From Xanthostigma xanthostigma (Eukaryota; Arthropoda; Insecta; Raphidioptera; Raphidiidae), in contig OY754470.1 of the NCBI GenBank assembly GCA_963575645.1, forward strand, positions 23,728,501-23,792,500: a stretch of 64,000 bases of DNA, in the 5' to 3' direction. The notes under the pieces are model-generated. The model worked only from the letters and a program-made list of their open reading frames with translations. It was not told the DNA's origin and searched no databases. Shown here piece by piece: positions 1 to 45,559 of the stretch; the stretch's first letter is position 1, and each line of letters begins with the position of its first letter. The translations under genes and the position numbers were made by a program.

Positions 1-3000
1 ATCGACCAGAAAAGGGAACGACCAGAAAATGATCGAACAGAAAAGGGAACGACCAGAAAATGATCGACCAGAAAAGGGAACGACCAGAAAATGATCGACC
101 AGAAAAGGGAACGACCAGAAAATGATCGACCAGAAAAGGGAACGACCAGAAAATGATCGACCAGAAAAGTGAACGACCAGAAAATGATCGACCAGAAAAG
201 ACAACGACCAGAAAAAATGATCGACCAGAAAAGGGAACGACCAGAAAATGATCGACCAGAAAAGGGAACGACCAGAAAATGATCGACCAGAAAAGGGAAC
301 GACCAGAAAATGATCGACCAGAAAAGGGAACGACCAGAAAATGATCGACCAGAAAAGGGAACGACCAGAAAATGATCGACCAGAAAAGGGAACGACCAGA
401 AAATGATCGACCAGAAAAGGGAACGACCAGAAAATGATCGACCAGAAAAGGAAACGACCAGAAAATGATCGACCAGAAAGGGAACGACCAGAAAATGATC
501 GACCAGAAAAGGGAACGACCAGAAAATGATCGACCAGAAAAGGGAACGACCAGAAAATGATCGACCAGAAAAGGGAACGACCAGAAAATGATCGACCAGA
601 AAAGGGAACGACCAGAAATTGATCGACCAGAAAAAGGAACGACCAGAAAATGATCGACCAGAAAAGGGAACGACCAGAAAATGATCGACCAGAAAAGGGA
701 ACGACCAGAAAATGATCGACCAGAAAAGTGAACGACCAGAAAATGATCGACCAGAAAAGTGAACGACCAGAAAATGATCGACCAGAAAAGGGAACGACCA
801 GAAAATGATCGACCAGAAAAGGGAACGACCAGAAAAGGGAACGACCAGAAAATGATCGACCAGAAAAGGGAACGACCAAAAAATGATCGACCAGAAAAGG
901 GAACGACCAGAAAATGATCGACCAGAAAATAATCGACCAGAAAAGGGAACGACCAGAAAATGATCGACCAGAAAAGGGAACGACCAGAAAATGATCGACC
1001 AGAAAAGGCAACGACCAGAAAATGATCGACCAGAAAAGTGAACGACCAGAAAATGATCGACAAGAAAAGTGAACGACCAGAAAATGATCGACCAGAAAAG
1101 GGAACGACCAGAAAATGATCGACCAGAAAAGGGAACGACCAGAAAATGATCGACCAGAAAAGGGAACGACCAGAAAATGATCGACCAGAAAAGGGAACGA
1201 CCAGAAAATGATCGACCAGAAAAGGGAACGACCAGAAAATGATCGAACAGAAAAAGGGACGACCAGAAAAGGGAACGACCAGAATATGATCGACCAGAAA
1301 AGGGAACGACCAGAAAATGATCGACCAGAAAAGGGAACGACCAGAAAATGATCGACCAGAAAATGATCGACCAGAAAAGGGAACGACCAGAAAATGATCG
1401 ACCAGAAAAGAGAACGACCAGAAAATGATCGACCAGAAAAGGGAACGACCAGAAAAGGGAACGACCAGAAAATGATCGACCAGAAAAGGGAACGACCAGA
1501 AAATGATCGACCAGAAAAGGGAACGACCAGAAAATGATCGACCAGAAAACGATCGACCAGAAAAGGGAACGACCAGAAAATGATCGACCAGAAAAAGGAA
1601 CGACCAGAAAATGATCGACCAGAAAAGGGAACGACTAGAAAATGATCGACCAGAAAAGGGAACGACCAGAAAAAATGATCGACCAGAAAAGGGAACGACC
1701 AGAAAAAATGATCGACCAGAAAAGGGAACGACCAGAAAAAATGATCGACCAGAAAAGGGAACGACCAGAAAATGATCGACCAGAAAAGGGAACGACCAGA
1801 TATTGATCGATCAGAAAAGGGAACGACCAGAAAATGATCGACCAGAAAAGTGAACGACCAGAAAATGATCGACCAAAAAAGTGAACGACCAGAAAATGAT
1901 CGACCAGAAAAGTGAACGACCAGAAAATGATCGACCAGAAAAAGGAACGACCAGAAAATGATCGACCAGTAAAGGGAACGACCAGAAAATGATCGACCAG
2001 AAAAGGGAACGACCAGAAAATGATCGACCAGAAAAGGGAACGACCAGAAAATGATCGACCAGAAAAGGGAACGACCAGAAATTGATCGACCAGAAAAAGG
2101 AACGACCAGAAAATGATCGATCAGAAAAGGGAACGACCAGAAAATGATCGACCAGAAAAGGGAACGACCAGAAAATGATCGACCAGAAAAGTGAACGACC
2201 AGAAAATGATCGACCAGAAAAGTGAACGACCAGAAAATGATCGACCAGAAAAGGGAACGACCAGAAAATGATCGACCAGAAAAGGGAACGACCAGAAAAG
2301 GGAACGACCAGAAAATGATCGACCAGAAAAGGGAACGACCAGAAAATGATCGACCAGAAAAGGGAACGACCAGAAAATGATCGACCAGAAAATGATCGAC
2401 CAGAAAAGGGAACGACCAGAAAATGATCGACCAGAAAAGGGAACGACCAGAAAATGATCGACCAGAAAAGGCAACGACCAGAAAATGATCGACCAGAAAA
2501 GTGAACGACCAGAAAATTATCGACAAGAAAAGTGAACGACCAGAAAATGATCGACCAGAAAAGGGAACGACCAGAAAATGATCGACCAGAAAAGGGAACG
2601 ACCAGAAAATGATCGACCAGAAAAGGGAACGACCAGAAAATGATCGACCAGAAAAGGGAACGACCAGAAAATGATCGACCAGAAAATGATCGACCAGAAA
2701 AGGGAACGACCAGAAAATGATCGAACAGAAAAGGGAACGACCAGAAAAGGGAACGACCAGAATATGATCGACCAGAAAAGGGAACGACCAGAAAATGATC
2801 GACCAGAAAAGGGAACGACCAGAAAATGATCGACCAGAAAATGATCGACCAGAAAAGGGAACGACCAGAAAATGATCGACCAGAAAAGGGAACGACCAGA
2901 AAATGATCGACCAGAAAAGGGAACGACCAGAAAAGGGAACGACCAGAAAATGATCGACCAGAAAAGGGAACGACCAGAAAATGATCGACCAGAAAAGGGA

Positions 3001-6000
3001 ACGACCAGAAAATGATCGACCAGAAAATGATCGACCAGAAAAGGGAACGACCAGAAAATGATCGACCAGAAAAGGGAACGACCAGAAAATGATCGACCAG
3101 AAAAGGGAACGACCAGAAAAGGGAACGACCAGAAAAAATGATTGACCAGAAAAGGGAACGACCAGAAAAAATGATCGACCAGAAAAGGGAACGACCAGAA
3201 AAAATGATCGACCAGAAAAGGGAACGACCAGAAAATGATCGACCAGAAAAGGGAACGACCAGAAAATGATCGGCCAGAAAAGGGAACGACCAGAAAATGA
3301 TCGACCAGAAAAGTGAACGACCAGAAAATGATCGACCAAAAAAGTGAACGACCAGAAAATGATCGACCAGAAAAGTGAACGACCAGAAAATGATCGACCA
3401 GAAAAAGGAACGACCAGAAAATGATCGACCAGTAAAGGGAACGACCAGAAAATGATCGACCAGAAAAGGGAACGACCAGAAAATGATCGACCAGAAAAGG
3501 GAACGACCAGAAAATGATTGACCAGAAAAGGGAACGACCAGAAAATGATCGACCAGAAAAGGGAACGACCAGAAAATGATCGACCAGAAAAGGGAACGAC
3601 CATAAAATGATCGACCAGAAAAGGGAACGACCAGAAAATGATCGACCAGAAAAGGGAACGACCAGATAATGATCGACCAGAAAAGGGAACGACCAGAAAA
3701 TGATCGACCAGAAAAGGGAACGACCAGAAAATGATCGACCAGAAAAGGGAACGACCAGAAAATGATCAACCAGAAAAGGGAACGACCAGAAAATGATCGA
3801 CCAGTAAAGGGAACGACCAGAAAATGATCGACCAGAAAAGGGAACGACCAGAAAATGATCGACCAGAAAAGGGAACGACCAGAAAATGATTGACCAGAAA
3901 AGGGAACGACCAGAAAATGATCGACCAGAAAAGGGAACGACCAGAAAATGATCGACCAGAAAAGGGAACGACCAGAAAATGATCGACCAGAAAAGGGAAC
4001 GACCAGAAAATGATCGACCAGAAAATGATCGACCAGAAAAGGGAACGACCAGAAAATGATCGACCAGAAAAGGGAACGACCAGAAAATGATCGACCAGAA
4101 AAGGGAACGACCAGAAAATGATCGAACAGAAAAGGGAACGACCAGAAAATGATCGACCAGAAAAGGGAACGACCAGAAAATGATCGACCAGAAAAGGGAA
4201 CGACCAGAAAATGATCGACCAGAAAAGGGAACGACCAGAAAATGATCGACCAGAAAAGGGAACGACCAGAAAATGATCGACCAGAAAATGATCGACCAGA
4301 AAAGGGAACGACCAGAAAATGATCGACCAGAAAAGGGAACGACCAGAAAATGATCGACCAGAAAAGGGAACGACCAGAAAATGATCGAACAGAAAAGGGA
4401 ACGACCAGAAAATGATCGACCAGAAAAGGGAACGACCAGAAAATGATCGACCAGAAAAGGGAACGACCAGAAAATGATCGACCAGAAAAGGGAACGACCA
4501 TAAAATGATCGACCAGAAAAGGGAACGACCAGAAAATGATCGACCAGAAAAGGGAACGACCAGATAATGATCGACCAGAAAATGATCGACCAGAAAAGTG
4601 AACGACCAGAAAATGAACGACCAGAAAAAGGAACGACCAGAAAATGATCGACCAGAAAAGGGAACGACCAGAAAATGATCGACCAGAAAAGGGAACGACC
4701 AGAAAATGATCGACCAGAAAATGATCGACCAGAAAATGATCGACCAGAAAAGGGAACGACCAGAAAATGATCGACCAGAAAAGGGAACGACCAGAAAATG
4801 ATCGACCAGAAAAGGGAACGACCATAAAATGATCGACCAGAAAAGGGAACGACCAGAAAATGATCGACCAGAAAAGGGAACGACCAGATAATGATCGAAC
4901 AGAAAAGGGAACGACCATAAAATGATCGACCAGAAAAGTGAACGACCAGAAAATGATCGACCAGAAAAGTGAACGACCAGAAAATGATAGACCAGAAAAG
5001 GGAACGACCAGAAAATGATCGACCAGAAAAGGGAACGACCAGAAAATGATCGACCAGAAAAGGGAACGACCAGAAAATGATCGACCAGAAAATGATCGAC
5101 CAGAAAAGGGAACGACCAGAAAATGATCGACCAGAAAAGGGAACGACCAGAAAATGATCGACCAGAAAAGGGAACGACCAGAAAATGATCGAACAGAAAA
5201 GGGAACGACCAGAAAATGATCGACCAGAAAAGGGAACGACCAGAAAATGATCGACCAGAAAAGGGAACGACCAGAAAATTATCGACCAGAAAAGGGAACG
5301 ACCAGAAAATGATCGACCAGAAAAGGGAACGACCAGAAAATGATCGACCAGAAAAGGGAACGACCATAAAATTATCGACCAGAAAAGGGAACGACCAGAA
5401 AATGATCGACCAGAAAAGGGAACGACCAGATAATGATCGACCAGAAAAGGGAACGACCAGAAAATGATCGACCAGAAAAGGGAACGACCAGAAAATGATC
5501 GACCAGAAAAGGGAACGACCAGAAAATGATCGACCAGAAAAGGGAACGACCAGAAAATGATCAACCAGAAAAGGGAACGACCAGAAAATGATCGACCAGT
5601 AAAGGGAACGACCAGAAAATGATCGACCAGAAAAGGGAACGACCAGAAAATGATCGACCAGAAAAGGGAACGACCAGAAAATGATTGACCAGAAAAGGGA
5701 ACGACCAGAAAATGATCGACCAGAAAAGGGAACGACCAGAAAATGATCGACCAGAAAAGGGAACGACCAGAAAATGATCGACCAGAAAATGATCGACCAG
5801 AAAATGATCGACCAGAAAAGGGAACGACCAGAAAATGATCGACCAGAAAAGGGAACGACCAGAAAATGATCGACCAGAAAAGGGAACGACCAGAAAATGA
5901 TCGAACAGAAAAGGGAACGACCAGAAAATGATCGACCAGAAAAGGGAACGACCATAAAATGATCGACCAGAAAAGGGAACGACCAGAAAATGATCGACCA

Positions 6001-9000
6001 GAAAAGGGAACGACCAGAAAATGATCGACCAGAAAAGGGAACGACCAGAAAATGATCGACCAGAAAAGGGAACGACCAGAAAATGATCGACCAGAAAAGG
6101 GAACGACCAGAAAATGATCGACCAGAAAAGGGAACGACCATAAAATGATCGACCAGAAAAGGGAACGACCAGAAAATGATCGACCAGAAAAGGGAACGAC
6201 CAGATAATGATCGACCAGAAAAGGGAACGACCAGAAAAATGATCGACCAGAAAAGGGAACGACCAGAAAATGATCAACCAGAAAAGGGAACGACCAGAAA
6301 ATGATCGACCAGTAAAGGGAACGACCAGAAAATGATCGACCAGAAAAGGGAACGACCAGAAAATGATCGACCAGAAAAAGGAACGACCAGAAAATGATTG
6401 ACCAGAAAAGGGAACGACCAGAAAATGATCGACCAGAAAAGGGAACGACCAGAAAATGATCGACCAGAAAAGGAAACGACCAGAAAATGATCGACCAGAA
6501 AAGGGAACGACCAGAAAAGGGAACGACCAGAAAATGATCGACCAGAAAAGGGAACGACCAGAAAATGATCGACCAGAAAAGGGAACGACCAGAAAATGAT
6601 CGACCAGAAAAGGGAACGACCAGAAAATGATCGACCAGAAAAGGGAACGACCAGAAAATGATCGACCAGTAAAGGGAACGACCAGAAAATGATCGACCAG
6701 AAAGGGGAACGACCAGAAATTGATCGACCAGAAAAGGGAACGACCAGAAAATGATTGACCAGAAAATGATTGACCAGAAAAGGGAACGACCAGAAAATGA
6801 TCGACCAGAAAAGGGAACGACCAGAAAATGATCGACCAGAAATGGAAACGACCAGAAAAGGGAACGACCAGAAAAGGGAACGACCAGAAAATGATCGACC
6901 AGAAAAGGGAACGACCAGAAAATGATCGACCAGAAAAGGGAACGACCAGAAAATGATCGACCAGAAAAGGGAACGACCAGAAAATAATCGACCAGAAAAG
7001 GGAACGACCAGAAAATGATCGACCAGAAAAGGGAACGACCAGAAAATGATCGACCAGAAAAGGGAACGACCAGAAAATGATCGACCAGAAAAGGGAACGA
7101 CCAGAAAATGATCGACCAGAAAAGGGAACGACCAGAAAATGATCGACCAGAAAATGATCGACCAGAAAAGGGAACGACCAGAAAATGATCGACCAGAAAA
7201 GGGAACGACCAGAAAATGATCGACCAGAAAAGGGAACGACCAGAAAATGATCGACCAGAAAAGGGAACGACCAGAAAATGATCGACCAGAAAAGGGAACG
7301 ACCAGAAAATGATCGACCAGAAAAGGGAACGACCAGAAAATGATCGACCAGAAAAGTGAACGACCAGAAAATGATCGACCAGAAAAGTGAACGACCAGAA
7401 AATGTTCGACCAGAAAAGGGAACGACCAGAAAATGATCGACCAGAAAAGGGAACGACCAGAAAAGGGAACGACCAGAAAATGATCGACCAGAAAAGGGAA
7501 CGACCAGAAAAGGGAACGACCAGAAAATGATCGACCAGAAAAGGGAACGACCAGAAAATAATCGACAAGAAAAGGGAACGACCAGAAAATGATCGACCAG
7601 AAAAGGGAACGACCAGAAAAGGGAACGACCAGAAAATGATCGACCAGAAAAGGGAACGACCAGAAAAGGGAACGACCAGAAAATGATCGACCAGAAAAGG
7701 GAACGACCAGAAAATGATCGACCAGAAAAGGGAACGACCAGAAAATGATCGACCAGAAAAGGGAACGACCAGAAAATGATTGACCAGAAAAGGGAACGAC
7801 CAGAAAATGATCGACCAGAAAAGGGAACGACCAGAAAAAATGATCGACCAGAAAAGGGAACGACCAGAAAAAATGATCGACCAGAAAAGGGAACGACCAG
7901 AAAATGATCGACCAGAAAATGATCGACCAGAAAAGGGAACGACCAGAAAATGATCGACCAGAAAAGGGAACGACCAGAAAATGATCGACCAGAAAAGGGA
8001 ACGACCAGAAATTGATCGACCAGAAAAGGGAACGACCAGAAAATGATCGACCAGAAAAGGGAACGACCAGAAATAGATCGAACAGAAAAGGAAACGACCA
8101 GAAAATGATCGACCAGAAAAGTAAACGACCAGAAAATGATCGACCAGAAATGTGAACGACCAGAAAATGATCGACCAGAAAAGGGAACGACCAGAAAATG
8201 ATCGACCAGAAAAGGGAACGACCAGAAAATGATCGACCAGAAAAGGGAACGACCAGAAAATGATCGACCAGAAAAGGGAACGACCAGAAAATGATCGACC
8301 AGAAAAGGGAACGACCAGAAAATGATCGACCAGAAAAGGGAACGACCAGAAAATGATCGACCAGAAAAGGGAACGACCAGAAAATGATCGACCAGAAAAG
8401 GGAACGACCAGAAAATGATCGACCAGAAAAGTGAACGACCAGAAAATGATCGACCAGAAAAGTGAACGACCAGAAAATGATCGACCAGAAAAGGGAACGA
8501 CCAGAAAATGATCGACCAGAAAAGGGAACGACCAGAAAATGATCGACCAGAAAAGGGAACGACCAGAAAATGATCGACCAGAAAAGGGAACGACCAGAAA
8601 ATGATCGACCAGAAAAGGGAACGACCAGAAAATGATCGACCAGAAAATGATCGACCAGAAAAGTGAACGACCAGAAAATGATCGACCAGAAAAGTGAACG
8701 ACCAGAAAATGTTCGACCAGAAAAGGGAACGACCAGAAAATGATCGACCAGAAAAGGGAACGACCAGAAAAGGGAACGACCAGAAAATGATCGACCAGAA
8801 AAGGGAACGACCAGAAAATGATCGACCAGAAAAGGGAACGACCAGAAAATGATCGAACAGAAAAGGGAACGACCAGAAAATGATCGACCAGAAAAGGGAA
8901 CGACCAGAAAATGATCGACCAGAAAAGGGAACAACCAGATAATGATCGACCAGAAAATGATCGACCAGAAAAGTGAACGACCAGAAAATGATCGACCAGA

Positions 9001-11728
9001 AAATTGAACGACCAGAAAATGTTCGACCAGAAAAGGGAACGACCAGAAAATGATCGACCAGAAAAGGGAACGACCAGAAAATGATCGACCAGAAAAGGGA
9101 ACGACCAGAAAATGATCGACCAGTAAAGAGAACGACCAGAAAATGATCGACCAGAAAAGGGAACGACCAGAAAATGATCGAACAGAAAAGAGAACGACCA
9201 GAAAATGATCGACCAGAAAAGGGAACGACCAGAAAATGATCGACCAGAAAAGGGAACGACCAGAAAATGATCGACCAGAAAAGGGAACGACCAGAAAATG
9301 ATCGACCAGAAAAAGGAACGACCAGAAAATGATCGACCAGAAAATGATCGACCAGAAAATGATCGACCAGAAAAGGGAACGACCAGAAAATGATCGACCA
9401 GAAAAGTGAACGACCAGAAAAGGGAACGACCAGAAAATGATCGACCAGAAAAGGAAACGACCAGAAAATGATCGACCAGAAAAGGGAACGACCAGAAAAG
9501 GGAACGACCAGAAAATGATCGACCAGAAAAGGGAACGACCAGAAAATGATCGACCAGAAAAGGGAACGACCAGAAAATGATCGACCAGAAAAGGGAACGA
9601 CCAGAAAATGATCGACCAGAAAAGGGAACGACCAGAAAATGATCGACCAGAAAAGGGAACGACCAGAAAATGATCGACCAGAAAAGGGAACGACCAGAAA
9701 AGGGAACGACCAGAAAATGATCGACCAGAAAAGGGAACGACCAGAAAATGATCGACCAGAAAAGGGAACGACCAGAAAATGATCGACCAGAAAAGGGAAC
9801 GACCAGAAAATGATCGACCAGAAAAGGGAACGACCAGAAAATGATCACCCAGAAAAGGGAACGACCAGAAAATGATCGACCTGAAAAAGGAACGACCAGA
9901 AAATGATCGACCAGAAAAGGGAACGACCAGAAAATGATCGACCAGAAAAGGGAACGACCAGAAAATGATCGACCAGAAAAGGGAACGACCAGAAAATGAT
10001 CGACCAGAAAAGGGAACGACCAGAAAAGGGAACGACCAGAAAATGATCGACCAGAAAAGGGAACGACCAGAAAATGATCGACCAGAAAAGGGAACGACCA
10101 GAAAATGATCGACCAGAAAATGATCGACCAGAAAAGGGAACGACCAGAAAATGATCGACCAGAAAAGGGAACGACCAGAAAATGATCGACCAGAAAAGTG
10201 AACGACCAGAAAATGATCGACAAGAAAAGTGAACGACCAGAAAATGATCGACCAGAAAAGGGAACGACCAGAAAATGATCGACCAGAAAAGGGAACGACC
10301 AGAAAATGATCGACCAGAAAAGGGAACGACCAGAAAATGATCGACCAGAAAAGGGAACGACCAGAAAATGATCGACCAGAAAATGATCGACCAGAAAATG
10401 ATCGACCAGAAAATGATCGACCAGAAAAGGGAACGACCAGAAAAGGGAACGACCAGAAAATGATCGACCAGAAAAGGGAACGACCAGAAAATGATCGACC
10501 AGAAGAGGGAACGACCAGAAAATGATCGACCAGAAAAGGGAACGACCAGAAAATGATCGACCAGAAAAGGGAACGACCAGAAAATGATCGACCAGAAAAG
10601 GGAACGACCAGAAAATGATCGACCAGAAAAGGGAACGACCAGAAAATGATCGACCAGAAAAGTGAACGACCAGAAAATGATCGACCAGAAAAGTGAACGA
10701 CCAGAAAATGATCGACCAGAAAAGGGAACGACCAGAAAATGATCGACCAGAAAAGGGAACGACCAGAAAAGGGAACGACCAGAAAATGATCGACCAGAAA
10801 AGGGAACGACCAGAAAATGATCGACCAGAAAAGGGAACGACCAGAAAATGATCGACCAGAAAAGGGAACGACCAGAAAATGATCGACCAGAAAAGGGAAC
10901 GACCAGAAAATGATCGACCAGAAAAGGGAACGACAAGAAAATGATCGACCAGAAAAGGGAACGACCAGAAAATTATCGACCAGAAAAGGGAACGACCAGA
11001 AAATGATCGACCAGAAAAGGGAACGACCAGAAAATGATCGACCAGAAAAGGGAACGACCAGAAAATGATCGACCAGAAAAGGGAACGACCAGAAAATAAT
11101 CGACCAGAAAAGGGAACGACCAGAAAATGTTCGACCAGAAAAGGAAACGACCAGAAAATGATCGACCAGAAAAGGGAACGACCAGAAAATGATCGACCAG
11201 AAAAGGGAACGACCAGAAAAAGGAACGACCAGAAAAAATGATCGACCAGAAAAGGGAACGACCAGAAAAAATGATCGACCAGAAAAGGGAACGACCAGAA
11301 AAAATGATCGACCAGAAAAGGGAACGAACAGAAAATGATCGACCAGAAAAGGGAACGACCAGAAAATGATCGACCAGAAAAGGGAACGACCAGAAAATGA
11401 TCGACCAGAAAAGGGAACGACCAGAAAATGATCGACCAGAAAAGTGAACGACCAGAAAATGATCGACCAGAAAAGTGAACGACCAGAAAATGATCGACCA
11501 GAAAAGGGAACGACCAGAAAATGATCGACCAGAAAAGGGAACGACCAGAAAAGGGAACGACCAGAAAATGATCGACCAGAAAAGGGAACGACCAGAAAAT
11601 GATCGACCAGAAAAGGGAACGACCAGAAAATGATCGACCAGAAAATGATCAACCAGAAAAGGGAACGACCAGAAAATGATCGACCAGAAAAGGGAACGAC
11701 CAGAAAATGATCGACCAGAAAAGGGAAC

Positions 11729-12160
11729 GACAAGAAAATGATCGACCAGAAAAGGGAACGACCAGAAAATTATCGACCAGAAAAGGGAACGACCAGAAAA
11801 TGATCGACCAGAAAAGGGAACGACCAGAAAATGATCGACCAGAAAAGGGAACGACCAGAAAATGATCGACCAGAAAAGGGAACGACCAGAAAATAATCGA
11901 CCAGAAAAGGGAACGACCAGAAAATGTTCGACCAGAAAAGGAAACGACCAGAAAATGATCGACCAGAAAAGGGAACGACCAGAAAATGATCGACCAGAAA
12001 AGGGAACGACCAGAAAAGGGAACGATCAGAAAATGATCGACCAGAAAAGGGAACGACCAGAAAATGATCGACCAGAAAAGGGAACGACCAGAAAAAATGA
12101 TCGACCAGAAAAGGGAACGACCAGAAAAAATGATCGACCAGAAAAGGGAACGACCAGAAA
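11729..12160. repeat. Higher-order block of the satellite, copy 1
   Basis: An ordered set of marker variants lies in this block: GACAAGAAAATG at about 11729, AATTATCG at about 11768, ATGTTCG at about 11925 followed at once by AAGGAAACG, GAACGATCAG at about 12021, then a cluster of 17-bp words from about 12090. The same markers in the same order recur at 14068-14500. Such shared private variants show duplication of a multi-unit block and not independent mutation. Confidence 0.8.
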
Positions 12161-14067
12161 ATGATCGACCAGAAAAGGGAACGACCAGAAAAGGGAACGA
12201 CCAGAAAATGATCGACCAGAAAAGGAAACGACCAGAAAATGATCGACCAGAAAAGGGAACGACCAGAAAAGGGAACGACCAGAAAAGGGAACGACCAGAA
12301 AATGATCGACCAGAAAATGATCGACCAGAAAAGGGAACGACCAGAAAATGATCGACCAGAAAAGGGAACGACCAGAAAATGATCGACCAGAAAAGGGAAC
12401 GACCAGAAAATGATCGACCAGAAAAGGGAACGACCAGAAAATGATCGACCAGAAAAGGGAACGACCAGAAAATGATCGACCAGAAAAGGGAACGACCAGA
12501 AAATGATCGACCAGAAAATGATCGACCAGAAAAGGGAACGACCAGAAAATGATCGACCAGAAAAGGGAACGACCAGAAAATGATCACCCAGAAAAGGGAA
12601 CGACCAGAAAATGATCGACCAGAAAAAGGAACGACCAGAAAATGATCGACCAGAAAAGGGAACGACCAGAAAATGATCGACCAGAAAAGGGAACGACCAG
12701 AAAATGATCGACCAGAAAAGGGAACGACCAGAAAATGATCGACCAGAAAAGGGAACGACCAGAAAAGGGAACGACCAGAAAATGATCGACCAGAAAAGGG
12801 AACGACCAGAAAATGATCGACCAGAAAAGGTAACGACAAGAAAATGATCGACTAGAAAAGGGAACGACCAGAAATGGATCGACCAGAAAAGGGAACGACC
12901 AGAAAATGATCGACCAGAAAAGGGAACGACCAGAAAATGATCGACCAGAAAAGGGAACGACCAAAAATGATCGACCAGAAAAGGGAACGACCAGAAAAAG
13001 GAACGACCAGAAAAAATGATCGACCAGAAAAAATGATCGACCAGAAAAGGGAACGACCAGAAAATGATCGACCAGAAAAGGGAACGACCAGAAAATGATC
13101 GACCAGAAAATGATCGACCAGAAAATGATCGACCAGAAAAAGGTACGACCAGAAAAGGGAACGACCAGAAAATGATCGACCAGAAAAGGGAACGACCAGA
13201 AAATGATCGACCAGAAAAGGGAACGACCAGAAAATGATCGACCAGAAAAGGGAACGACCAGAAAATGATCGACCAGAAAAGGGAACGACCAGAAAATGAT
13301 CGACCAGAAAATGATCGACCAGAAAAAGGTACGACCAGAAAAGGGAACGACCAGAAAATGATCAACCAGAAAAGGGAACGACCAGAAAATGATCGACCAG
13401 AAAAGGGAACGACCAGAAAATGATCGACCAGAAAAGGGAACGCCCAGAAAATGATCGACCAGAAAAGGGAACGACCAAAAATGATCGACCAGAAAAGGGA
13501 ACGACCAGAAAAAGGAACGACCAGAAAAAATGATCGACCAGAAAAGGGAACGACCAGAAAAAATGATCGACCAGAAAAGGGAACGACCAGAAAAGGGAAC
13601 GACCAGAAAAAATGATCGACCAGAAAAGGGAACGACCAGAAAATGATCGACCAGAAAAGGGAACGACCAGAAAATGATCGACCAGAAAAGGGAACGACCA
13701 GAAAATGATCGACCAGAAAAGGGAACGACCAGAAAATGATCGACCAGAAAAGGGAACGACCAGAAAATGATCGACCAGAAAAGGGAACGACCAGAAAATG
13801 ATCGACCAGAAAAGGGAACGACCAGAAAATGATCGACCAGAAAAGGGAACGACCAGAAAATGATCGACCAGAAAAGGGAACGACCAGAAAATGATCGACC
13901 AGAAAATGATCGACCAGAAAAGGGAACGACCAGAAAATGATCGACCAGAAAAGAGAACGACCAGAAAATGATCGACCAGAAAATGATCGACCAGAAAAGG
14001 GAACGACCAGAAAATGATCGACCAGAAAAGGGAACGACCAGAAAATGATCGACCAGAAAAGGGAACG

Positions 14068-14500
14068 ACAAGAAAATGATCGACCAGAAAAGGGAACGAC
14101 CAGAAAATTATCGACCAGAAAAGGGAACGACCAGAAAATGATCGACCAGAAAAGGGAACGACCAGAAAATGATCGACCAGAAAAGGGAACGACCAGAAAA
14201 TGATCGACCAGAAAATGATCGACCAGAAAAGGGAACGACCAGAAAATGTTCGACCAGAAAAGGAAACGACCAGAAAATGATCGACCAGAAAAGGGAACGA
14301 CCAGAAAATGATCGACCAGAAAAGGGAACGACCAGAAAAGGGAACGATCAGAAAATGATCGACCAGAAAAGGGAACGACCAGAAAATGATCGACCAGAAA
14401 AGGGAACGACCAGAAAAAATGATCGACCAGAAAAGGGAACGACCAGAAAAAATGATCGACCAGAAAAGGGAACGACCAGAAAAAATGATCGACCAGAAAA
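14068..14500. repeat. Higher-order block of the satellite, copy 2
   Basis: This is the partner of the block at 11729-12160. The marker order is GACAAGAAAATG (14068), AATTATCG (about 14106), ATGTTCG (about 14247) with AAGGAAACG, GAACGATCAG (about 14341), and then 17-bp words. By eye it differs from its partner over the first 350 bp by about one word of length and one base. A third, more diverged relative starts at about 10933. The offset between the two close copies is about 2.33 kb. Confidence 0.8.
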
Positions 14501-15059
14501 GGGAACGACCAGAAAATGATCGACCAGAAAAGGGAACGACCAGAAAAGGGAACGACCAGAAAATGATCGACCAGAAAAGGGAGCGACCAGAAAATGATCG
14601 ACCAGAAAAGGGAACGACCAGAAAATGATCGACCAGAAAAGGGAACGACCAGAAAATGATCGACTAGAAAAGGGAACGACCAGAAAATGATCGACCAGAA
14701 AAGGGAACGACCAGAAAATGATCGACCAGAAAATGATCGACCAGAAAAGGGAACGACCAGAAAAGGGAACGACCAGAAAATGATCGACCAGAAAAGGGAA
14801 CGACCAGAAAATGATCGACCAGAAAAGGGAACGAACAGAAAATGATCGACCAGAAAATGATCGACCAGAAAAGGGAACGACCAGAAAATGATCGACCAGA
14901 AAAGGGAACGACCAGAAAATGTTCGACCAGAAAAGGGAACGACCAGAAAATGATCGACCAGAAAAGGGAACGACCAGAAAATGATCGACCAGAAAAGGGA
15001 ACGACCAGAAAATGATCGACCAGAAAAGGGAACGACCAGAAAATGATCGACCAGAAAAG

Positions 15060-15358
15060 CGTATGGCAATATTGTTATTGTTATTGAGTTTTGGGGGTTG
15101 GCTAAATAGGGGTAAATTTAATCGAAATCGGATGGCATTGATACACACTATTATTTGTACTTAGGACAGTATAAATTTCAAATGCCATCTGATTTGAACA
15201 ATTTTTAGTGTGTTTTTTTTACTTATTGTTAAAAAAATCGAAAAAAAGGGTTTTTCGGCGACATTGAGGGGTTGTTTCTCCGAAACTGCCCATCAGGATC
15301 GGATGGCAATTTTTTCCCAAAGTTTGGTGGTGTCAATAAGTATGCTCACTAATTTATA
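15060..15358. other. Spacer between satellite and gene-like copy 1
   Basis: This stretch is no longer satellite. The phrase TCGGATGGCA occurs twice (about 15128 and 15299) and its near complement GCCATCTGAT lies between them (about 15183), suggesting the remains of a small repeat. No open frame, RNA or element with clear ends is seen. Confidence 0.5.
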
Positions 15359-16426
15359 AATAAACCCCCTTTAAAATTGACAGTCAATTACGAAGCAGCC
15401 TGTATTGAAAAATAATTTGTTTTAGTTGGTACACATAATAATTAATTATTATTTATTACCTATATAAGCTATGTTTAAAAAAAATCCTAAAATATGTATT
15501 TAGGTATTATTTAATTATATAAGAAGTTTTTACCCGAAATAAAGCGAAAGAAAAATAATTTTCTTCCTACAATTTTTATAGTTTATTTATAAAATATACA
15601 TAAGAAGACGCACGAACAGTTTTGTTCGTGCGTCTTTTCGTATGACCCATAAAAGTAGCCAATTGTTCCATTTCATTATCATTAAGGTTTAAAATTTGTA
15701 AAACAGTTGCAATTTGTTTTCTGAGACGGGAAGATGTTAAAGTACCCCGATTTTTTTCGTTTTAACGAAACAAAAGGCAATTTATGTATTACAATTTTAA
15801 TTTATCAATGATGAAATATTAAAAATAACAGTTTTATAGTCTTTCAAATTTTATTACAAAATGCTTTTAATAACAGCAAAATATTTTTCTGTACTATAAA
15901 ATGGTTTTTGCATTCACAAAAAAGAGTTTTGCTTGAATGTAGCTTAAAAATTAAAAAGTTAATTTAACTTACCTTTGTCTTGTATACTAGCAGTTGTCGT
16001 GTATTTTTTATTTATAGCCAGATTTACTAACTTTTTCCCACGTGATAACATTTTGGAGCAAATTATTTTTCGTCACTATCACAATTTGAACACTTATTAA
16101 CTACTAAAAGTGCACGCGTACTGCGTAGCAACGTCACAAGAATTTGGCAATGCTGCAGGATCTCATTTTATGCTACATACATCGTGATATACATTTCCGG
16201 ATCTCCACTTGTATACATTTCATAACAGATCTCGTTTTGTTCAAATTTTGTCACGAAAAATTTAAACGCTAAATTGTTTCCCCTCTGCGGGGTTATAGAT
16301 TAAGGACAATAAAAGGAAGCTTTTTGTGAAAAATATACTCCAGAAAACCTTTTTTTTGTGGTGGACCTCGGGTTGTCTATAATTTAGTCGGATCTCCACT
16401 TGATACAAAAACATATATATATATAT
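15359..16426 (-). pseudogene. Truncated copy 1 of the recombinase-like gene unit
   Basis: This 1.07-kb segment is a close copy of 23354-25555 without the 1165-bp hAT insertion found there. Read on the minus strand it begins at a TA-repeat, runs through a promoter-like region rich in GGATCTCC/GAGATC motifs, then a short candidate first exon (ATG at 16051, opening MLSRGKKLVNLAINKK, GT donor after 15973), an intron, and the region encoding LTSSRLRKQIATVLQ and FMGHT. The two later exons of the right-hand copy have no counterpart here, because homology stops at 15359, 300 bp from the satellite. A 13-bp hairpin duplication at 15605-15636 disrupts the conserved region. It is therefore a partial, broken copy. 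Whether the unit is a host gene or the gene of a mobile element cannot be settled from the window, but two copies 8 kb apart favour a mobile or segmentally duplicated origin. Confidence 0.75.
15605..15636. repeat. Perfect 13-bp hairpin inside copy 1
   Basis: AAGACGCACGAAC and GTTCGTGCGTCTT are perfect inverse complements separated by 6 bases. The right-hand copy has a single version of this sequence at about 24716-24731, so one arm was copied in reverse, as expected from template switching during replication. Confidence 0.85.
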
Positions 16427-21410: not shown

Positions 21411-21624
21411 TTAATTTAATACTTTTATTTGTACCCAGTTCTTGTCTTTAAATAAATCTGGATATTTTTCCCGTAATTTTAGACATTCTGCTTTTTTAGG
21501 AGAATTTTTTTAATATGAGTTTTGAAAAATTGTAACATTTTAGATTTTTGCTGTTTATTCCATGATCCACGGCAATTTTTTTTGTCTGTGTTTACTTTAC
21601 TCTTCTCCTTTTTGCGTGGTGTTT
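21411..21624 (-). CDS. Last exon, C-terminal helical region
   Basis: The exon follows a textbook 3' splice site (CTTATTTTTTACAG) and starts in the phase left by the previous exon. It encodes a lysine-rich linker (TPRKKEKSKVNTDKK) and then RGSWNKQQKSKMLQFFKTH. Residues typical of the end of the family, KYPDLFKDKNWVQIKV, are readable further on in a different frame, ending at a TAA at 21411. Either a small sequence change or a very short intron separates the two parts. The WVQIKV ending is my strongest evidence that this exon belongs to the same protein as 22609-22742. Confidence 0.6.
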
Positions 21625-22149
21625 CTGTAAAAAATAAGCGTAAGAAGAATTCGAATTTTCGTATTAATAATACAAAGATTATTAATTTTATTTTAACGTG
21701 ATTTAAGCTGTTCTGTCAAGTTTGCAAGTCTACAGAAATCGCATAACTTCGAGTTCGCGCAATTTGGAGTAGCGTAATTCGGGATATTACAGGGTATATA
21801 AATTTTAATGGGATTATCTTCAAAAATAAGTCATGTCTGTGACACTCTGTACCTATATCAGAATAAACTTTATGTACCTGTAAGCAATAATTATTTTTCA
21901 AAATTCTAAATTTCAACAGAGATTTTTATGTGGTTCATGCACTTTCGGTGATCATTCATACGCAACCTTCCTCTGATTCCGAATTAATATCGTTCTTGGT
22001 TTCATACTCGGGGACTACAACAGTATTTGAATCATCTAGTGTACCTCGTTTACTTGGGGCATCTGATAACACACAGTCAAAAATGAGAAAAAGTGTTACG
22101 TATGTGATTTTTAATATTTTAATGTTTGAAAAATAGTTTTAATAATAAT

Positions 22150-22578
22150 ACGTGGTATTAAGAGTATTCGTCCCTGCAAATACCCCCTGCACCCTTCATC
22201 TCAAATCCTAAAAACGGTTTGCGCTCTCCCGACGCTATTTTTAAAGCTAGAGGGTTCTGGTAAACGCCAAATGAAAGACAAAGAATCAGACTACAGATCC
22301 TTCAGGCGAATTTTTTGAAAAAAAATTCCTGAAAAAACTTACAACCTTTTGAAAAAAATAATAAGTTACGTAATATTTCACACGTAGGCGAGACTGTTTT
22401 TCAAAAAATTTGCCTGAAGGATCTGTAGTCTGATTCTTTGTCTTTCATTTGGCGTTTACCAGAACCCTCTAGCTTTAAAAATAGCGTCGGGAGAGCGCGA
22501 ACCGTTTTTAGGCGAGGGGAAAAGATTTGAGATGAAGGGTGCAGCGGGTGTTTGCAGGGACGAATTTTCTTAATACGT
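22150..22578. mobile_element. Fold-back MITE in the intron
   Basis: A 429-bp inverted repeat. Left arm about 22150-22335: TATTCGTCCCTGCAAATACC, then CACCCTTCATCTCAAATC, GCGCTCTCCCGACGC and AGAGGGTTCTGGTAAACGCC. The right arm, about 22398-22578, is its near-complete complement. The centre of about 60 bp is AT-rich. It lies inside the last intron of the recombinase-like gene. No target duplication could be defined, and the 63-codon open frame across the right arm is incidental. Confidence 0.85.
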
Positions 22579-22608
22579 TCTTTACCAATCATTAATAATA
22601 ATTGTTAC

Positions 22609-22742
22609 CATTTTCGTTTTCCTCGAAAGATTGTCTATTCCATTGTTCCAATTCGACGTCGAATTTATCACTGTCGACCCCCCTTTCCATCATTAAAAGT
22701 AACTTGGCTATTTTTGCGGTTTGGTAAACTTCCTGTGGTAAT
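22609..22742 (-). CDS. Exon of the recombinase-like gene (post-catalytic helix)
   Basis: 134 bp. A 3' splice site (ACTTTATTTTAAG) precedes it and a G|GTAAC donor ends it. It completes an arginine codon begun by the core exon (FYR) and reads LPQEVYQTAKIAKLLLMM, then ERGVDSDKFDVELEQW, then an acidic tail SFEENENE. One base is left over and supplies the first base of the first codon of the last exon. The length, phases and splice sites fit both neighbours, which is hard to obtain by chance. Reading through the donor instead would end at a TAA at 22592. Confidence 0.7.
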
Positions 22743-23134
22743 CTTAAAATAAAGTTTAAATTTATTTTTCGAATTACTTGGCGGAAGGATAAGTGAGATG
22801 CAAGAGATGTAATATGTTTAGTTTTGCGAGACAGTGAATAAATATTTAAAAAGTCGCAGGTACTTGAACAGTAAAGTGAAATAATAGTCAATGTTTCTCA
22901 TTTACTAAATGCACGAGTTTTTTCGGTAAATCGCGACTTTCCCAAGTACTGTAAACAAACATTTTTACAATTATATTAAATCTAAGTACTTAATTTTAAT
23001 TTTTAAGCACAACTTATTTAACCCCCACACACTCTTAATAATGTGAGATGACTTATAACAAATATTTATCTAATATACAGTGCGTTTCATAATTGAATAT
23101 ACTTATACATATAGGTTCGTTTTTACTTCATTTC

Positions 23135-23290
23135 TGATATACAAGGTGATAGAGATTTTTTTGAAAAATTGATTTAGGTATTTTAATAAACCTGAAGCTA
23201 CCTAAGATTTTTATTAATTTATTATTTGTTGACAGTCAATTAAAATAACTAATTTAATTAAAAAAAAAATCTGTGTCACCCTGCGTATCA
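23135..23290. mobile_element. Short TIR element
   Basis: 156 bp with imperfect inverted ends: TGATATACAAGGTGATAGAG at the left against TGATACGCAGGGTGACACAG in the complement of the right end, each followed by a run of T. The interior is AT-rich with TTGACAGTCAATT. No target duplication was identified. It lies in an intron of the recombinase-like gene. Confidence 0.55.
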
Positions 23291-23427
23291 AATATGACGC
23301 AAATCGGGCCTAATGTTTATTATAAACTTTTTGTCTTAAAATCATGCACAATTAATAAACCCCCTTTAAAATTGACAGTCAATTACGAAGCAGCCTGTAT
23401 TGAAAAATAATTTGTTTTAGTTGGTAC

Positions 23428-24592
23428 TAGTGATGTGCCGGATCGTTAAAAATGCATATCCGCGGATACGGATCTGAATACGGATATTTGGTTTCAAGAT
23501 CCGCGGATACGGATATTTGGTTTCAAGATCCGTGGATACGGATACGGATCTTAACTTTCTTAGAGTACGCGGCGGTAAATATTGCACATCGACCTTTGGA
23601 AAGAGACTGTTATGGGAAAAAGTTATTGACTTCTTTAAGAGTTAACTCTCATAACAGATTCCAGAGATCGATGTGCAATATCTCATTATAAAGATAGTTT
23701 TTTATTAGTACCTTTGAGTTATGTACTATTGGTATGGTACTCACTACGATAAATTTTTGCAATATAAAGGTGCCAAATACGATTTTAAGAAAAAAAATTA
23801 GTTGTCTGTAAAGTCGGTTTACGGACGATAGTTTTACGTGATAACGTATTCCGTAATACATAACCTAAACCTCCCAAAATTTGGTTTCAATCCGCTTATC
23901 CTTGGTGTCGGAATGATAAGAAATGTCAAAAGTGACGTTTGCAACTGTCAAAGTATTATGTTCTAATAATAATTAGTTATTCCAATACTTAACTTAGAAG
24001 GCGTTGCATTTCACAAAATACTAATGTCAAAAAATTGAATTAAACATTAGAAATGCAGCCGTTTTCATGTTGCATTTATACAGCTATTTTTCTATATAAA
24101 TTTGTATAAAAAAACTGTTTAGGCAAATTCTGTTATACGAAATCTATGTAAAATGTTCTCCTCTTTCGTTTAAGACTGGTTTCAAACCGATCTGATTTAA
24201 ATTGAGTGAGAAATTAGCAAAAAGCACGCACAGGGTCAGACGGAACGTTACGCGTTACGAACGTTAGGAACGTTGGGATTTAGGAACGTTACACTTTTTC
24301 GTGCATGCAGCCGGTGTTTTATCAATTTATAAGATTGGTGATTCATCAATTTATAAGACGTTATCACGTCAATAAAAAATAATCTGAATGGAATTTAACA
24401 GTTTCTCATTATTACCTAATTATATATACCTATATAAAATTTCATGTATGAATTGAAAATTAATAAGGTAAAAGATTCGTAAAAGATCCGCCATAAAACT
24501 AACGGATACGGATATTTGGTTTCAAGATCCGCGGATCTTTCTTCTCCCTCGGATATCCGCGGATACGGATACGGATATCCGGCGCATCACTA
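23428..24592 (+). mobile_element. Non-autonomous hAT element
   Basis: 1165 bp bounded by TAGTGATGTGCCGGA at the left and TCCGGCGCATCACTA at the right (14 of 15 inverted matches), with a perfect 8-bp target duplication GTTGGTAC at 23420-23427 and 24593-24600. TIRs starting TAGTGATG and 8-bp duplications are typical of hAT elements. The subterminal regions contain repeats of GGATACGGATATTTGG and CCGCGGATACGGAT on both sides. No transposase is encoded. The interior (about 23797-24371) is a separate repeat, also found at 43701-44351. The orthologous empty site with one GTTGGTAC is in copy 1 near 15426. Confidence 0.93.
23797..24371 (+). repeat. 570-bp repeat carried inside the hAT element
   Basis: It starts ATTAGTTGTCTGTAAAGTCG and ends AAGACGTTATCACGTCAA, and matches 43701-44351 almost base for base. 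Both ends include ACGTGATAACGT in inverted orientation (about 23836 at the left, 24358 at the right). An AT-rich middle is followed by short GGAACGTTA repeats at 24240-24292. It is non-coding. The second copy stands alone without hAT ends, so it is either a mobile unit that entered the hAT or sequence captured by it. Confidence 0.75.
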
Positions 24593-24709
24593 GTTGGTAC
24601 ACATATATAAAATATGTTTAAAAAAAATCCTAAAATATGTATTAATTAAAGCGAAAGAAAAATAATTTTTTTCCTACAATTTTTATAGTTTATTTATAAA
24701 ATATCATAC

Positions 24710-24858
24710 CTATAAAACTGTTCGTGCGTCTTCTTCGTATGACCCATAAAAGTAGCCAATTGTTCCATTTCATTATCGTTAAGGTTTAAAATTTGTAAAA
24801 CAGTTGCAATTTGTTTTCTGAGACGGGAAGATGTTAAAGTACCCGGATTTTTTTCGTT
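24710..24858 (-). CDS. Core exon of the recombinase-like gene
   Basis: 149 bp open from the codon after a TAA at 24859-24861 to an AG|GTATGA donor. It encodes NEKNPGTLTSSRLRKQIA, then TVLQILNLNDNEMEQL, then ATFMGHTKKTHEQFYR. The conserved R-K helix, G-H pair and final tyrosine would be the right-hand part of a tyrosine-recombinase catalytic domain, a family of DNA strand-exchange enzymes that cut through a phosphotyrosine. The split arginine codon is completed precisely by the exon at 22742. No clear 3' splice site lies at its upstream end. Confidence 0.65.
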
Positions 24859-25074
24859 TTAACGAAACAAAAGGCAATTTATGTATTACAATTTTAATTT
24901 ATCAATGATGAAATTTAAAAAAAAAAACAATTTTATAGTCTTTCAAATTTTATTACAAAATGCTTTTAATAACAGCAAAATATTTTGCTGTACTATAAAA
25001 TGGTTTTTGCATTCACAAAAAAGAGTTCTGCTTGAATGTAGCTTAATAAAAATTAAAAAGTTAATTTAACTTAC

Positions 25075-25157
25075 CTTCGTCTTGTATACCTACTAGCAGT
25101 TGTCGTGTATTTTTTATTTATAGCCAGATTTACTAACTTTTTCCCACGTGATAACAT
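25075..25157 (-). CDS. Possible first exon of the recombinase-like gene
   Basis: An ATG at 25157 opens MLSRGKKLVNLAINKK, followed by TTTAS, and a consensus GTAAGT donor lies at 25069-25074. The same exon with the same donor occurs in copy 1 (16051-15973). The two copies differ in length by four bases near the donor, so the exact donor or phase in this copy is unclear. A longer open frame with another start (25359) overlaps it in a different frame and looks like chance. A basic start of this kind is plausible for a DNA-binding protein but proves nothing. Confidence 0.4.
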
Positions 25158-32375: not shown

Positions 32376-34398
32376 CTCTCTAAAACTGAAATAGTGAAAT
32401 TGTCACTATTTGTAATAGTGACTTCTGATTCACTTGCGGAATAGTGAATTCAAGTAAAATTCACTGTCAGAATAGCGATATTCCTGATTTTATACGTGTC
32501 GCTTGTGGCGTCTCCATACAGTTACTATAGATACTTATTTTTATTCATGTAGATAAACAAACAAATAATATAATTTGTCAGGTAAGTTAATTAGATTATT
32601 TTAATATTATTTTAATAGATTCAGAGTAAAGAATTGCTTGTATACTATTAGGCTAATGCCTATACTTTTTTGAAAAAAAAATAATAGCAGGCAAGGACCA
32701 GGTGGAAAATATTGTTGAGGCTCCAACTTTAAGGGAAAAAAATATTTAAACACGAAAACATTCAAAATGGTGAAATAGGGATGCAATTTAGGGGTTGAAG
32801 ACGGTTTTCTGGGATTTACGACAAAACGTGACCTCTTAGCGGAAATTGTTCTACACAAAAGTTGTAGATGGTAAAAAAATCTAAAACTTTTGTACCAAAC
32901 ACTTTTCGACATAACCTCAAATGAACCGTCAAAATGGCGAAAAACCGATTTTTCAGTATTTAATTTTTTTCTCGCGTAAAAATAATTTAATTTGCATGAA
33001 AATTTGTGAAAGTATGTCTTTTTTTATCTTAAATAAGCATGATTTTTTAGCAGTTCAGAATACGAGTATTTTCGGAGTTATCTACATTTTTCGAAAAAAA
33101 CACCCTTATTTTCCACGAACAATTGTCTTGATGTTTTTTTGTATTTCGAAGGTCTATAAGTGGTCATTTTAATCTTTGAAATGTCTACTTTAAAATGGTC
33201 TATGTAAGTTGGTGGTTTATTTATCGTTAAACTACTTAAAATTGCGAAAAACCGAAAAGTCTTTCTGTCGTGTATATGCTGTGATAAGGTAAATATTTTA
33301 CAGTAGTATTGTAACTATAGATACTTAACAAATTTAATCGTTTGGTTCAGTCTAGCAAACTGAGATTTGACAACAAATACACATGATTTGTTAAGTATCT
33401 ATAGTTACAGTACTACTGTAAAATATTTACCTTATCACAGCATATCCACAACAGAAAGACGTTTTTTCGGTTTTTCGCAATTTTAAGTAGTTTAACGATA
33501 AATAAACCACCAACTTACATTAGACCATTTTAAAGTAGACATTTCAAAGATTAAAATGACCACTTATAGAACTTCGAAATACAAAAAAACATCAAGACAA
33601 TTGTTCGTGGAAAATAAGGGTGTTTTTTTCGAAAAATGTACATAACTCCGAAAATAGTCGTATTCTGAACTGCAAAAAAATCATGCTTATTTAAGATAAA
33701 AAAAGACATACTTTCACAAATTTTCATGCAAATTAAATTATTTTTACGCGAGAAAAAAATTAAATACTGAAAAATCAGTTTTTCGCCATTTTGACGGTTC
33801 ATTTGAGGTTATGTCGAAAAGTGTTTGGTACAAAAGTTTTAGATTTTTTTACCATCTACAACTTTTGTGTAGAACAATTTCCGCTAAGAGGTCACGTTTT
33901 GCCGTAAATCCCAGAAAACCGTCTTCAACCCCTAAATTGCGTCCCCATTTCACCATTTTGAATGTTTTCGTGTTTAAATATTTTTTTCCCTTAAAGTTGG
34001 AGCCTCAACAACATTTTCCACCTGGTCCTTGCCTGCTATTTTTTTTTTAAACCGTTAAAAATTCGTTTTGGCACCAGTCTATATTGTTTTTTTACCGATT
34101 TTAAATTATAGTGAATGACAGCATCACAATGAAGTAAGGTTATGTTTTTTGACGCGAATTCTCTATTGTATTCAATTTTTAGTCTATTTGTAAAAATATA
34201 AAAGTTAATTATACTATTAACGAATTAATAAAGATTTAAAAAAAATTGTTGATGTAAGATGACATTTATATATACTTTTTATATTCACCTATATAATTTG
34301 TGAATTTTTATATTCACTAATTCATATTATTCTAGCCTTGATAAATAGTGAATATGCACTTGTAATTAATGAAAAATCACTTATTCATGTTTAGAGAG
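32376..34398. mobile_element. TA-flanked TIR element enclosing a giant palindrome
   Basis: The ends CTCTCTAAAACTGAAATAGTG and, in the complement, CTCTCTAAACATGAATAAGTG are inverted repeats bordered by TA on both sides (32374-32375 and 34399-34400), as in Tc1/mariner-type insertions. Subterminal sequence is full of AATAGTGAA and TTCACT repeats in both directions (32390-32470 and 34300-34380). About 1.38 kb of the interior is the palindrome 32672-34048. There is no transposase, so it is non-autonomous. Confidence 0.65.
32672..34048. repeat. Large palindrome, arms about 662 bp
   Basis: The left arm 32672-33333 and right arm 33386-34048 are inverse complements with a 52-bp loop. A few substitutions separate the arms (for example ATGCAATTT against GCGTCCCC-type positions), so they are not brand new. 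Mirrored open frames (32921-33172 and 33551-33802, beginning MNRQNGEK) and (32607-32912 and 33811-34050, beginning MSKSVWYKSF) are reflections of each other. They have no domain that I recognise. Confidence 0.9.
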
Positions 34399-38784: not shown

Positions 38785-39190
38785 TTGAGATAGGGTTAGG
38801 GTACGATAACACAATGTGCAAAATATCCATTGAAAATACACAATTATTATTTTATATAAAATATAACAGTGTATTTTGCCGTTTTAAATGCATTTTTTTT
38901 ATAATATAATTTTTTTGCCGCAGTGAAAAGAGGAAGGCGTTTGGGGGGCGTTAAAAAAAACAATTACGGGGTCGTGTCGATGCAATGACGTTTTTTTGCG
39001 CAGTAAAAGGGAGAAGAAGTCTGACGGAAGTTCTTTAAAAATTAATTACGAGATCGTGTCGATGCGATGGCATATTTTTTGCGCAGTGAAAAGGGGAGGG
39101 CGTTTGCGGGGAGTTCTTTAAAAAACAATTACGTGGTCGTGTATAAAAAACAATTTCGGGGTCGTGATCAAAACTCTGCCTACCGCCCCT
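38785..39190 (+). mobile_element. Element with ~85-bp minisatellite, copy 1
   Basis: It starts with TAGGGTACGATAACACAATG and AAAATATCCATTGAAAATAC, then has about three units of an 85-bp repeat: GCGCAGTGAAAAGGGGAGGG, GCGTTTGCGGGGAG, then AAAAACAATTACGGGGTCGTG and TCGATGCGATGGC. The reverse orientation of the whole arrangement appears at 50375-50930. Elements with a conserved flank and an internal minisatellite are common among Helitron-related non-autonomous families, but I see no Helitron terminus. Confidence 0.7.
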
Positions 39191-43660: not shown

Positions 43661-43700
43661 AATAAAAAATAAGTTCAACAGAAATAATTTAAATAAAAAA

Positions 43701-44351
43701 ATTAGTTGTCTGTAAAGTCGGTTTACGGACGATAGTTTTACGTGATAACGTATTCCGTAATACATAACCTAAACCTCCCAAAATTTGGTTTCAATCCGCT
43801 TATCCTTGGTGTCGGAATGATAAGAAATGTCAAAAGTGACGTTTGCAACTGTCAAAGTATTATGTTCTAATAATAATTAGTTATTCCAATACTTAACTTA
43901 GAAGGCATTGCATTTCACAAAATACTAATGTCAAAAAATTGAATTAAACATTAGAAATGCAGCCGTTTTTATGTTAAGACAAGACATACGTTATATTCTA
44001 ATTTCCATGTACGGCAAACAAAGACGACCGACCGCGTCGCGGCATGCATTAGACAACATTGCATTTATATTTTATACAGCTATTTTTCTATATAAATTTG
44101 TATAAAAAAACTGTTTAGGCAAATTCTGTTATACGAAATCTATGTAAAATGTTCTCCTCTTTCGTTTAAGACTGGTTTCAAACCGATCTGATTTAAATTG
44201 AGCGAGAAATTAGCAAAAAGCACGCACAGGGTCAGGCGGAACGTTACGCGTTAGGAACGTTACGTTAGGAACGTTACGACCGTTAGGAACGTTACACTTT
44301 TTCGTACATGCAGCCGGTGTTTTATCAATTTATAAGACGTTATCACGTCAA
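43701..44351 (+). repeat. 570-650-bp repeat, free-standing copy
   Basis: This is nearly identical to the interior of the hAT element at 23797-24371, except for an extra ~80 bp at about 43977-44058 (containing ACCGACCGCGTCGCGG) and a longer GGAACGTTA array (44237-44293). It has no hAT ends here. Confidence 0.75.
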
Positions 44352-45388: not shown

Positions 45389-45559
45389 TTTTTAATTTAT
45401 AATTGTATTATTCGTTAAAAATATGATATAATACAAATTAAAAAGAAAACATGAGTTTGTATAACTTTTACGCGAGGTTGAAGTAAAACTTCTTCTGATT
45501 TGATTTTGCCAGTCTCACTTTTCGGAAAATATTCATTCACAAATTAAATCACTCGTAAA

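Follow-up and report, generated by a model that had tools for sequence, protein, structure and literature searches.

Two partial copies of a probable tyrosine-recombinase-like gene relic among repeats in the Xanthostigma xanthostigma genome

A 64,000-nucleotide stretch of the genome of the raphidiid insect Xanthostigma xanthostigma (contig OY754470.1, positions 23,728,501 to 23,792,500; the window) carries on its minus strand, between window positions 25157 and 21411, a series of exon-like open frames, here called the candidate first exon and exons A, B, D and C in 5' to 3' order. These are probably what an internal deletion and ongoing decay have left of a multi-exon tyrosine-recombinase-like gene, of which a second partial copy lies nearby; the gene probably came from a mobile element or from a multicopy family with such an origin. 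We infer the recombinase ancestry from the register in which LR and GH of exon A align in profile-profile comparisons and from the top ranks of both exon A copies among the open reading frames (ORFs) of the window. The decay reading is drawn from an exon A with no upstream acceptor, a frame change in exon C, and a second copy that is gapped and rearranged, and deletion and decay are further backed by exons that are not clearly conserved between the copies, a repeat-rich neighborhood, and a limit of homology that both copies share at a (TA)n tract. If this explanation is right, the locus would be a further relic of this kind of gene in an animal genome, and taken alone it would be an ordinary fossil, unless transcripts or conservation show otherwise.

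An earlier note on this DNA, made from its letters alone, had described three minus-strand exons that join in frame. The three segments are present, at about 24852-24710 (exon A), 22742-22609 (exon B) and 21624-21411 (exon C), and both junctions restore the reading frame: AG/GTATGA to TTTTAAG/A between exons A and B gives FYR-LPQEV, and G/GTAAC to TTTTTTACAG/AA between exons B and C gives ENE-TPRKK, for a joined reading of KNPGTLTSSRLRKQIATVLQILNLNDNEMEQLATFMGHTKKTHEQFYR-LPQEVYQTAKIAKLLLMMERGVDSDKFDVELEQWNRQSFEENEN-ETPRKKEKSKVNTDKKNCRGSWNKQQKSKMLQFFKTHIKK (slashes mark splice junctions). Exon A, with a sequence resembling tyrosine-recombinase box II, encodes KNPGTLTSSRLRKQIATVLQILNLNDNEMEQLATFMGHTKKTHEQFY(R), and exon B encodes LPQEVYQTAKIAKLLLMMERGVDSDKFDVELEQWNRQSFEENEN. 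Exon C, however, is not one frame down to 21411. Its first frame, (E)TPRKKEKSKVNTDKKNCRGSWNKQQKSKMLQFFKTHIKK at 21624-21506, meets a stop at 21479, and a 31-residue run to 21411, NSPKKAECLKLREKYPDLFKDKNWVQIKVLN followed by a stop, lies in another frame according to a three-frame translation of 21506-21411; the change of frame adjoins a run of A, and an AATAAA motif is located about 50 bases downstream of the stop of this tail. The set of three is also incomplete. A candidate exon D of 96 bases (22062-21967), encoding (D)APSKRGTLDDSNTVVVPEYETKNDINSESEE, has the same phase on both sides and so preserves the frame between exons B and C, and a candidate first exon (25157-25075) begins with an ATG at 25157, reads MLSRGKKLVNLAINKKYTTTASRYTRR, and ends at the donor AAG/GTAAGT; it has no match in Pfam. 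Counted to the first stop, 93 residues follow the tyrosine of exon A without exon D and 125 with it.

What exon A does not have is a usable acceptor at its upstream end. Ten AG sites from 25081 to 24940 were checked and none could open it, since 2 to 4 in-frame stops follow each one; these stops also bar acceptors farther upstream. There is instead an acceptor, ATCTTCCCGTCTCAG, inside exon A at 24818, just before 24817, which scores among the best 0.3% of AG sites and pairs in phase with the first-exon donor at 25074 (best 0.1% of minus-strand GT sites); with this pair, exon A would start inside its RLRK stretch. The open frame from the first exon then runs for 188 codons with exon D and 156 without it. 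Other sites, all scored with weights from the general splice-site consensus, are of uneven quality. The exon C acceptor TTTTTTACAG is among the best 0.9% of AG sites and the exon B donor is fair (6.6% of GT sites are as good), and the exon B acceptor, the AAG ending at 22743, is mediocre, with 51% of AG sites scoring equally well; exon D has a fair acceptor (best 12%) and a weak donor (best 22%).

The agreement of splice sites and phases on which the earlier note relied is real as far as frame goes but does not clearly rise above chance. When three-exon chains were counted over 15161-64000 with site scores and exon lengths about equal to the claimed ones or better and introns of 60-2100 bases, the minus strand gave 190, among them the claimed chain, and the plus strand gave 114, with chains overlapping and sharing exons; such agreement is therefore no evidence by itself. 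The G+C content of the exons is ordinary for the window.

The evidence for recombinase ancestry comes from exon A. The earlier note had read RLRK, FMGH and FYR as a tyrosine-recombinase active site and had proposed a profile search against recombinase families as a check. We built two C-terminal profiles of phage-type tyrosine recombinases, one from 115 viral-contig sequences picked on HDLRHT together with lambda Int and Cre (profile 1), the other from 138 viral-contig sequences picked on GH...TT..Y.H, which leaves HxxR unfixed (profile 2), as well as a catalytic-domain profile of 112 sequences, and ranked with them the 1,179 ORFs of 25 residues or more in the window. With profile 1 exon A ranks first and its second copy second (E 1.0 and 1.6), with profile 2 the order is reversed (exon A second, E 0.49; its copy first, E 0.13), and with the catalytic-domain profile the two rank 2 and 3 (E 3.5 and 5.2), the two copies being non-independent in all of these ranks. 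Exon A scores 5.5 bits with profile 1, a value reached or exceeded by 52 of 10,000 shuffles, and 6.3 bits with profile 2, equaled or exceeded by 73 of 20,000; exons A and B together score 4.6 bits with profile 1, which 49 of 10,000 shuffles match or beat. The exon B ORF, 3' of the tyrosine, ranks 335 of the 857 and 267 of the 812 reported. In hhalign comparisons with both profiles LRK is aligned to LRH and GH to GH; Y is aligned to Y for profile 1 only. Taken together, profiles and shuffles offer mild support, short of proof, for a recombinase-like box II of the form LR...GH...Y.

The fuller active site is another matter. Neither the box I arginine nor the beta-hairpin lysine was found, as 0 of the 1,179 ORFs matched the catalytic-domain profile significantly (best E 3.0); both residues could sit in short exons or beyond the window. 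Exon A moreover has serine at the usual histidine of HxxR, which is histidine in 110 of the 120 recombinases, among the 138, in which a simple motif could read it. Compared with lambda Int, Cre and viral recombinases, which have the phage integrase type of catalytic domain, exon A shares xxLR, a stretch of 24 residues, GH, and Y nine residues later, in the same order and at nearly the same spacing, but differs in an LR-GH gap three residues longer in the hhalign alignments, in the serine, in the absence of a box I arginine and lysine from what was found, and in having no significant profile match.

Several results weigh against the preferred explanation and temper the support just described. 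No profile E-value (0.13 to 5.2 at 1,179 ORFs) is significant, and the best shuffles, at 8.7 bits for profile 1 and 13.4 bits for profile 2, outscore the observed 5.5 and 6.3. The hhalign probability is about 1%, with P about 0.06, and plain hmmsearch aligned only GH to Y with profile 1 and only LR to GH with profile 2. The exons have no significant match in Pfam or the Protein Data Bank (PDB), and in PHROGs they match no integrase, only phrog_1838, of unknown function, at E 0.0044. When exon A by itself was modeled with AlphaFold (two helices, pLDDT 70), Foldseek gave four matches, at E 8 to 9.4, none of them a recombinase. Pattern scans of viral and prokaryotic contigs found no relative, though for an animal gene such contigs are the wrong place to look. 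The exon C frame change could be an assembly error, and the strong in-phase pair of first-exon donor and internal acceptor would be expected of a live short gene too.

The searches behind these negatives were as follows. Neither DUF3504 (PF12012) nor Phage_integrase (PF00589) is listed by Pfam for the exons at E up to 1 or 10; since HMMER filters drop most weak matches and the query was a single C-terminal piece, this is a weak test. A DUF3504 search of the lambda record and 14 control genomes matched nowhere and is uninformative for that reason. A profile with rows added from outside the window found nothing in the PDB. Relatives were sought with back-translated patterns whose candidates were then checked by tblastn: the exon A pattern drew 41 stretches of viral contigs and the pattern of exons A and B drew 114 stretches of genome contigs and 9 of viral contigs, none a relative, and an alignment broadened with sequences from outside the window again yielded 0 relatives in 102 viral and 142 genome-contig stretches. 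An exact degenerate pattern of the motif of a putative animal family, given below, has no occurrence in viral contigs, and tblastn of exons A and B against phages gave no match. Pfam and PDB matches, among them DUF1198, TadF, NAM, DUF4439, Ras suppressor protein and MogR, and phrog_1838 were dismissed as chance because they vary from query to query, and a MOM1-like match (9.1e-05), which came only from the added sequences and not from the window and fell below its cut-off, was rejected.

The earlier note overlooked the second copy, which lies at 16432-15356 on the minus strand. It comprises the upstream part, the first exon, exon A with a rearranged end, and the start of intron 1; no copies of exons B, D and C were found with it. 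Positions 16432-15537 repeat 25538-24644 at 94.6% identity over 907 columns, and 15432-15356 repeat 23427-23351 at 98.7% over 77 columns. The first exon of this copy has a 4-base gap. Substitutions between the copies number 10/380 in the upstream part, 5/224 in intron 0 and 9/121 in the start of intron 1, and 0/71 in the first exon, 2/116 in the body of exon A and 2/24 at its end, with no clear excess of conservation in the exons, on which selection is not clearly indicated. On the 5' side, the homology between the copies ends at a (TA)n tract in each, which would fit either independent insertions or a microsatellite break. At about 15590-15650 the final bases of exon A in the second copy recur as a short inverted repeat (TTCGTGCGTCTT / AAGACGCACGAA), resembling the outcome expected of fold-back repair.

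Comparing the copies, of which one has an uninterrupted insertion site, gives a relative order of events. Intron 1 of the first copy contains an insertion of 1,165 bases (23428-24592), flanked by GTTGGTAC at 23420-23427 and 24593-24600, which we take from this 8-base duplication to be hAT-like. In the second copy the site is uninterrupted, with GTTGGTAC present once, at 15425-15432; the insertion, found in the first copy only, therefore postdates the duplication or left the second copy cleanly. Parts of the same insertion recur 20 kb away at 43688-44337, with 98.6% identity over 288 columns and 94.8% over 267. The intron after exon B contains a long inverted repeat, a fold-back element, at 22155-22576.

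Under the explanation we prefer, the ancestral protein would have possessed a whole catalytic domain, with the arginine, the lysine, (H/S)xxR, GH, and a tyrosine forming the covalent bond to DNA, and loss of the middle of the gene would have left the half that carries box II, plus a charged tail. Only 257 bases separate the end of the first exon from the acceptor inside exon A, so the missing exons would have no room in the present locus. If transcribed, the locus with its best-scoring sites would give a product of 156 residues, or of 188 if exon D is included, presumably without function and incapable of recombination by itself.

The nearest rival is a live short host gene in which 25157-25075 is spliced to 24817 and then to exons B, D and C, giving a protein of 188 residues that retains only the C-terminal part of a recombinase and acts in DNA binding or regulation. 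The strong in-phase donor and internal acceptor speak for such a gene, as do the rebuilding at their junction of an arginine at the HxxR place, the single open frame of 188 codons with AATAAA past its end, and the first exon free of substitutions; but that 0/71 is not clearly below the flanks (about 2.5%), the exon D donor is weak and the exon B acceptor mediocre, exon C changes frame, and no known domain is present, and we regard this gene as unlikely. That the host recruited, in a satellite-bordered region, a short spliced gene holding only the second half of a recombinase, with the HxxR arginine rebuilt at the junction and a DNA-binding role, is very unlikely. The earlier note's suggestion of a host gene, in the sense of one under selection, finds no clear support, given the missing acceptor of exon A, the frame change in exon C and the damaged second copy.

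The suggestion of Crypton membership finds no backing either, as DUF3504 is not listed for the exons, subject to the weakness of that test. Crypton families are recognized by multiple copies sharing ends; in the two partial copies here homology stops on the 5' side at (TA)n, and the 3' part is missing from the second. If the locus were the remains of a true Crypton-type DNA transposon (CryptonI or CryptonA), this would account for the shared limit and for the tyrosine-recombinase-like box II, and according to PMC3212892 CryptonI occurs in insects and animal Cryptons have no terminal repeats. Against it stand the catalytic-domain profile with no significant match in the window and the 93 or 125 residues beyond the tyrosine, whereas animal Cryptons are described as having no C-terminal domain (PMC3212892); such a remnant is unlikely. 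Animal Cryptons (CryptonA, CryptonI) and DUF3504 genes, with known insect hosts and no reported terminal repeats, are like the locus in being of the tyrosine-recombinase type, and the DUF3504 genes are said to have lost the catalytic tyrosine (PMC3212892); the locus is unlike them in its long multi-exon C-terminal extension, its incomplete catalytic region and the unlisted DUF3504. Finally, an accidental joining of unrelated open frames, for which the 190 and 114 chains of no lower quality, the weak profile scores and the ordinary G+C content could be cited, is improbable: LR, GH and Y occur in the order seen in recombinases and almost at their spacing, the two (non-independent) copies of exon A come out on top with two differently chosen profiles, and candidate exon D keeps the frame.

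Multi-exon genes offer a further comparison. PMC10871703 reports tyrosine recombinases of nimaviruses that are telomere-associated and not close to Cryptons, multi-exon recombinase genes in two related viruses, and recombinase-like proteins in decapods. By these descriptions the two endogenous whispoviruses and the decapod proteins are like our locus in having multi-exon tyrosine recombinase genes in arthropod genomes (PMC10871703). No viral gene turned up in the window in the Pfam scan of ORFs described below, which was not a search aimed at viral genes. There is, in addition, a putative widespread, multicopy, uncharacterized animal protein family with the pattern LRK..AT...L.L...E...LA.FMGH....H..FYRLP, nearly identical over exons A and B. 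In tblastn this pattern matches exon A (6e-17) and exon B (4e-4), values that are not independent, since the pattern was drawn up with the exons already known; the family is a lead only. Literature searches on the recombinase topic listed papers on Cryptons, DIRS-type elements and nimavirus recombinases, but revealed no family with this pattern among the matches listed, nor did a search for the motif itself among its listed matches. Tyrosine-recombinase-like genes of this sort thus seem poorly described.

The earlier note had also called this the only convincing protein-coding structure in the window. A Pfam scan of the 62 ORFs of 75 amino acids or more outside the satellite, this locus included (64 listed ORFs minus two in the satellite), gave a best E of 0.0018, which agrees with that claim, though the structure itself is just moderately convincing. 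Rfam and tRNA scans of 15000-64000 identified no RNA family and no tRNA.

Repeats occupy much of the remaining window. Positions 1-15059 consist of a 31-bp satellite, 484.5 copies with 94% matches over 15 kb, whose letters do not occur in viral contigs; its minus strand lacks stops over long stretches and so gives an ORF of 1,115 residues (11773-15117) that is probably meaningless. Two segments, 32675-34048 and 47772-48489, match their own reverse complements over their full length (95.3% and 98.7%) and are large palindromes or fold-back elements. Short tandem arrays lie at 45558-46201 (216-bp unit), 50383-50730 (84-bp unit) and 51617-52174 (156-bp unit), and the 84-bp unit recurs in inverted orientation at 38909-39142.

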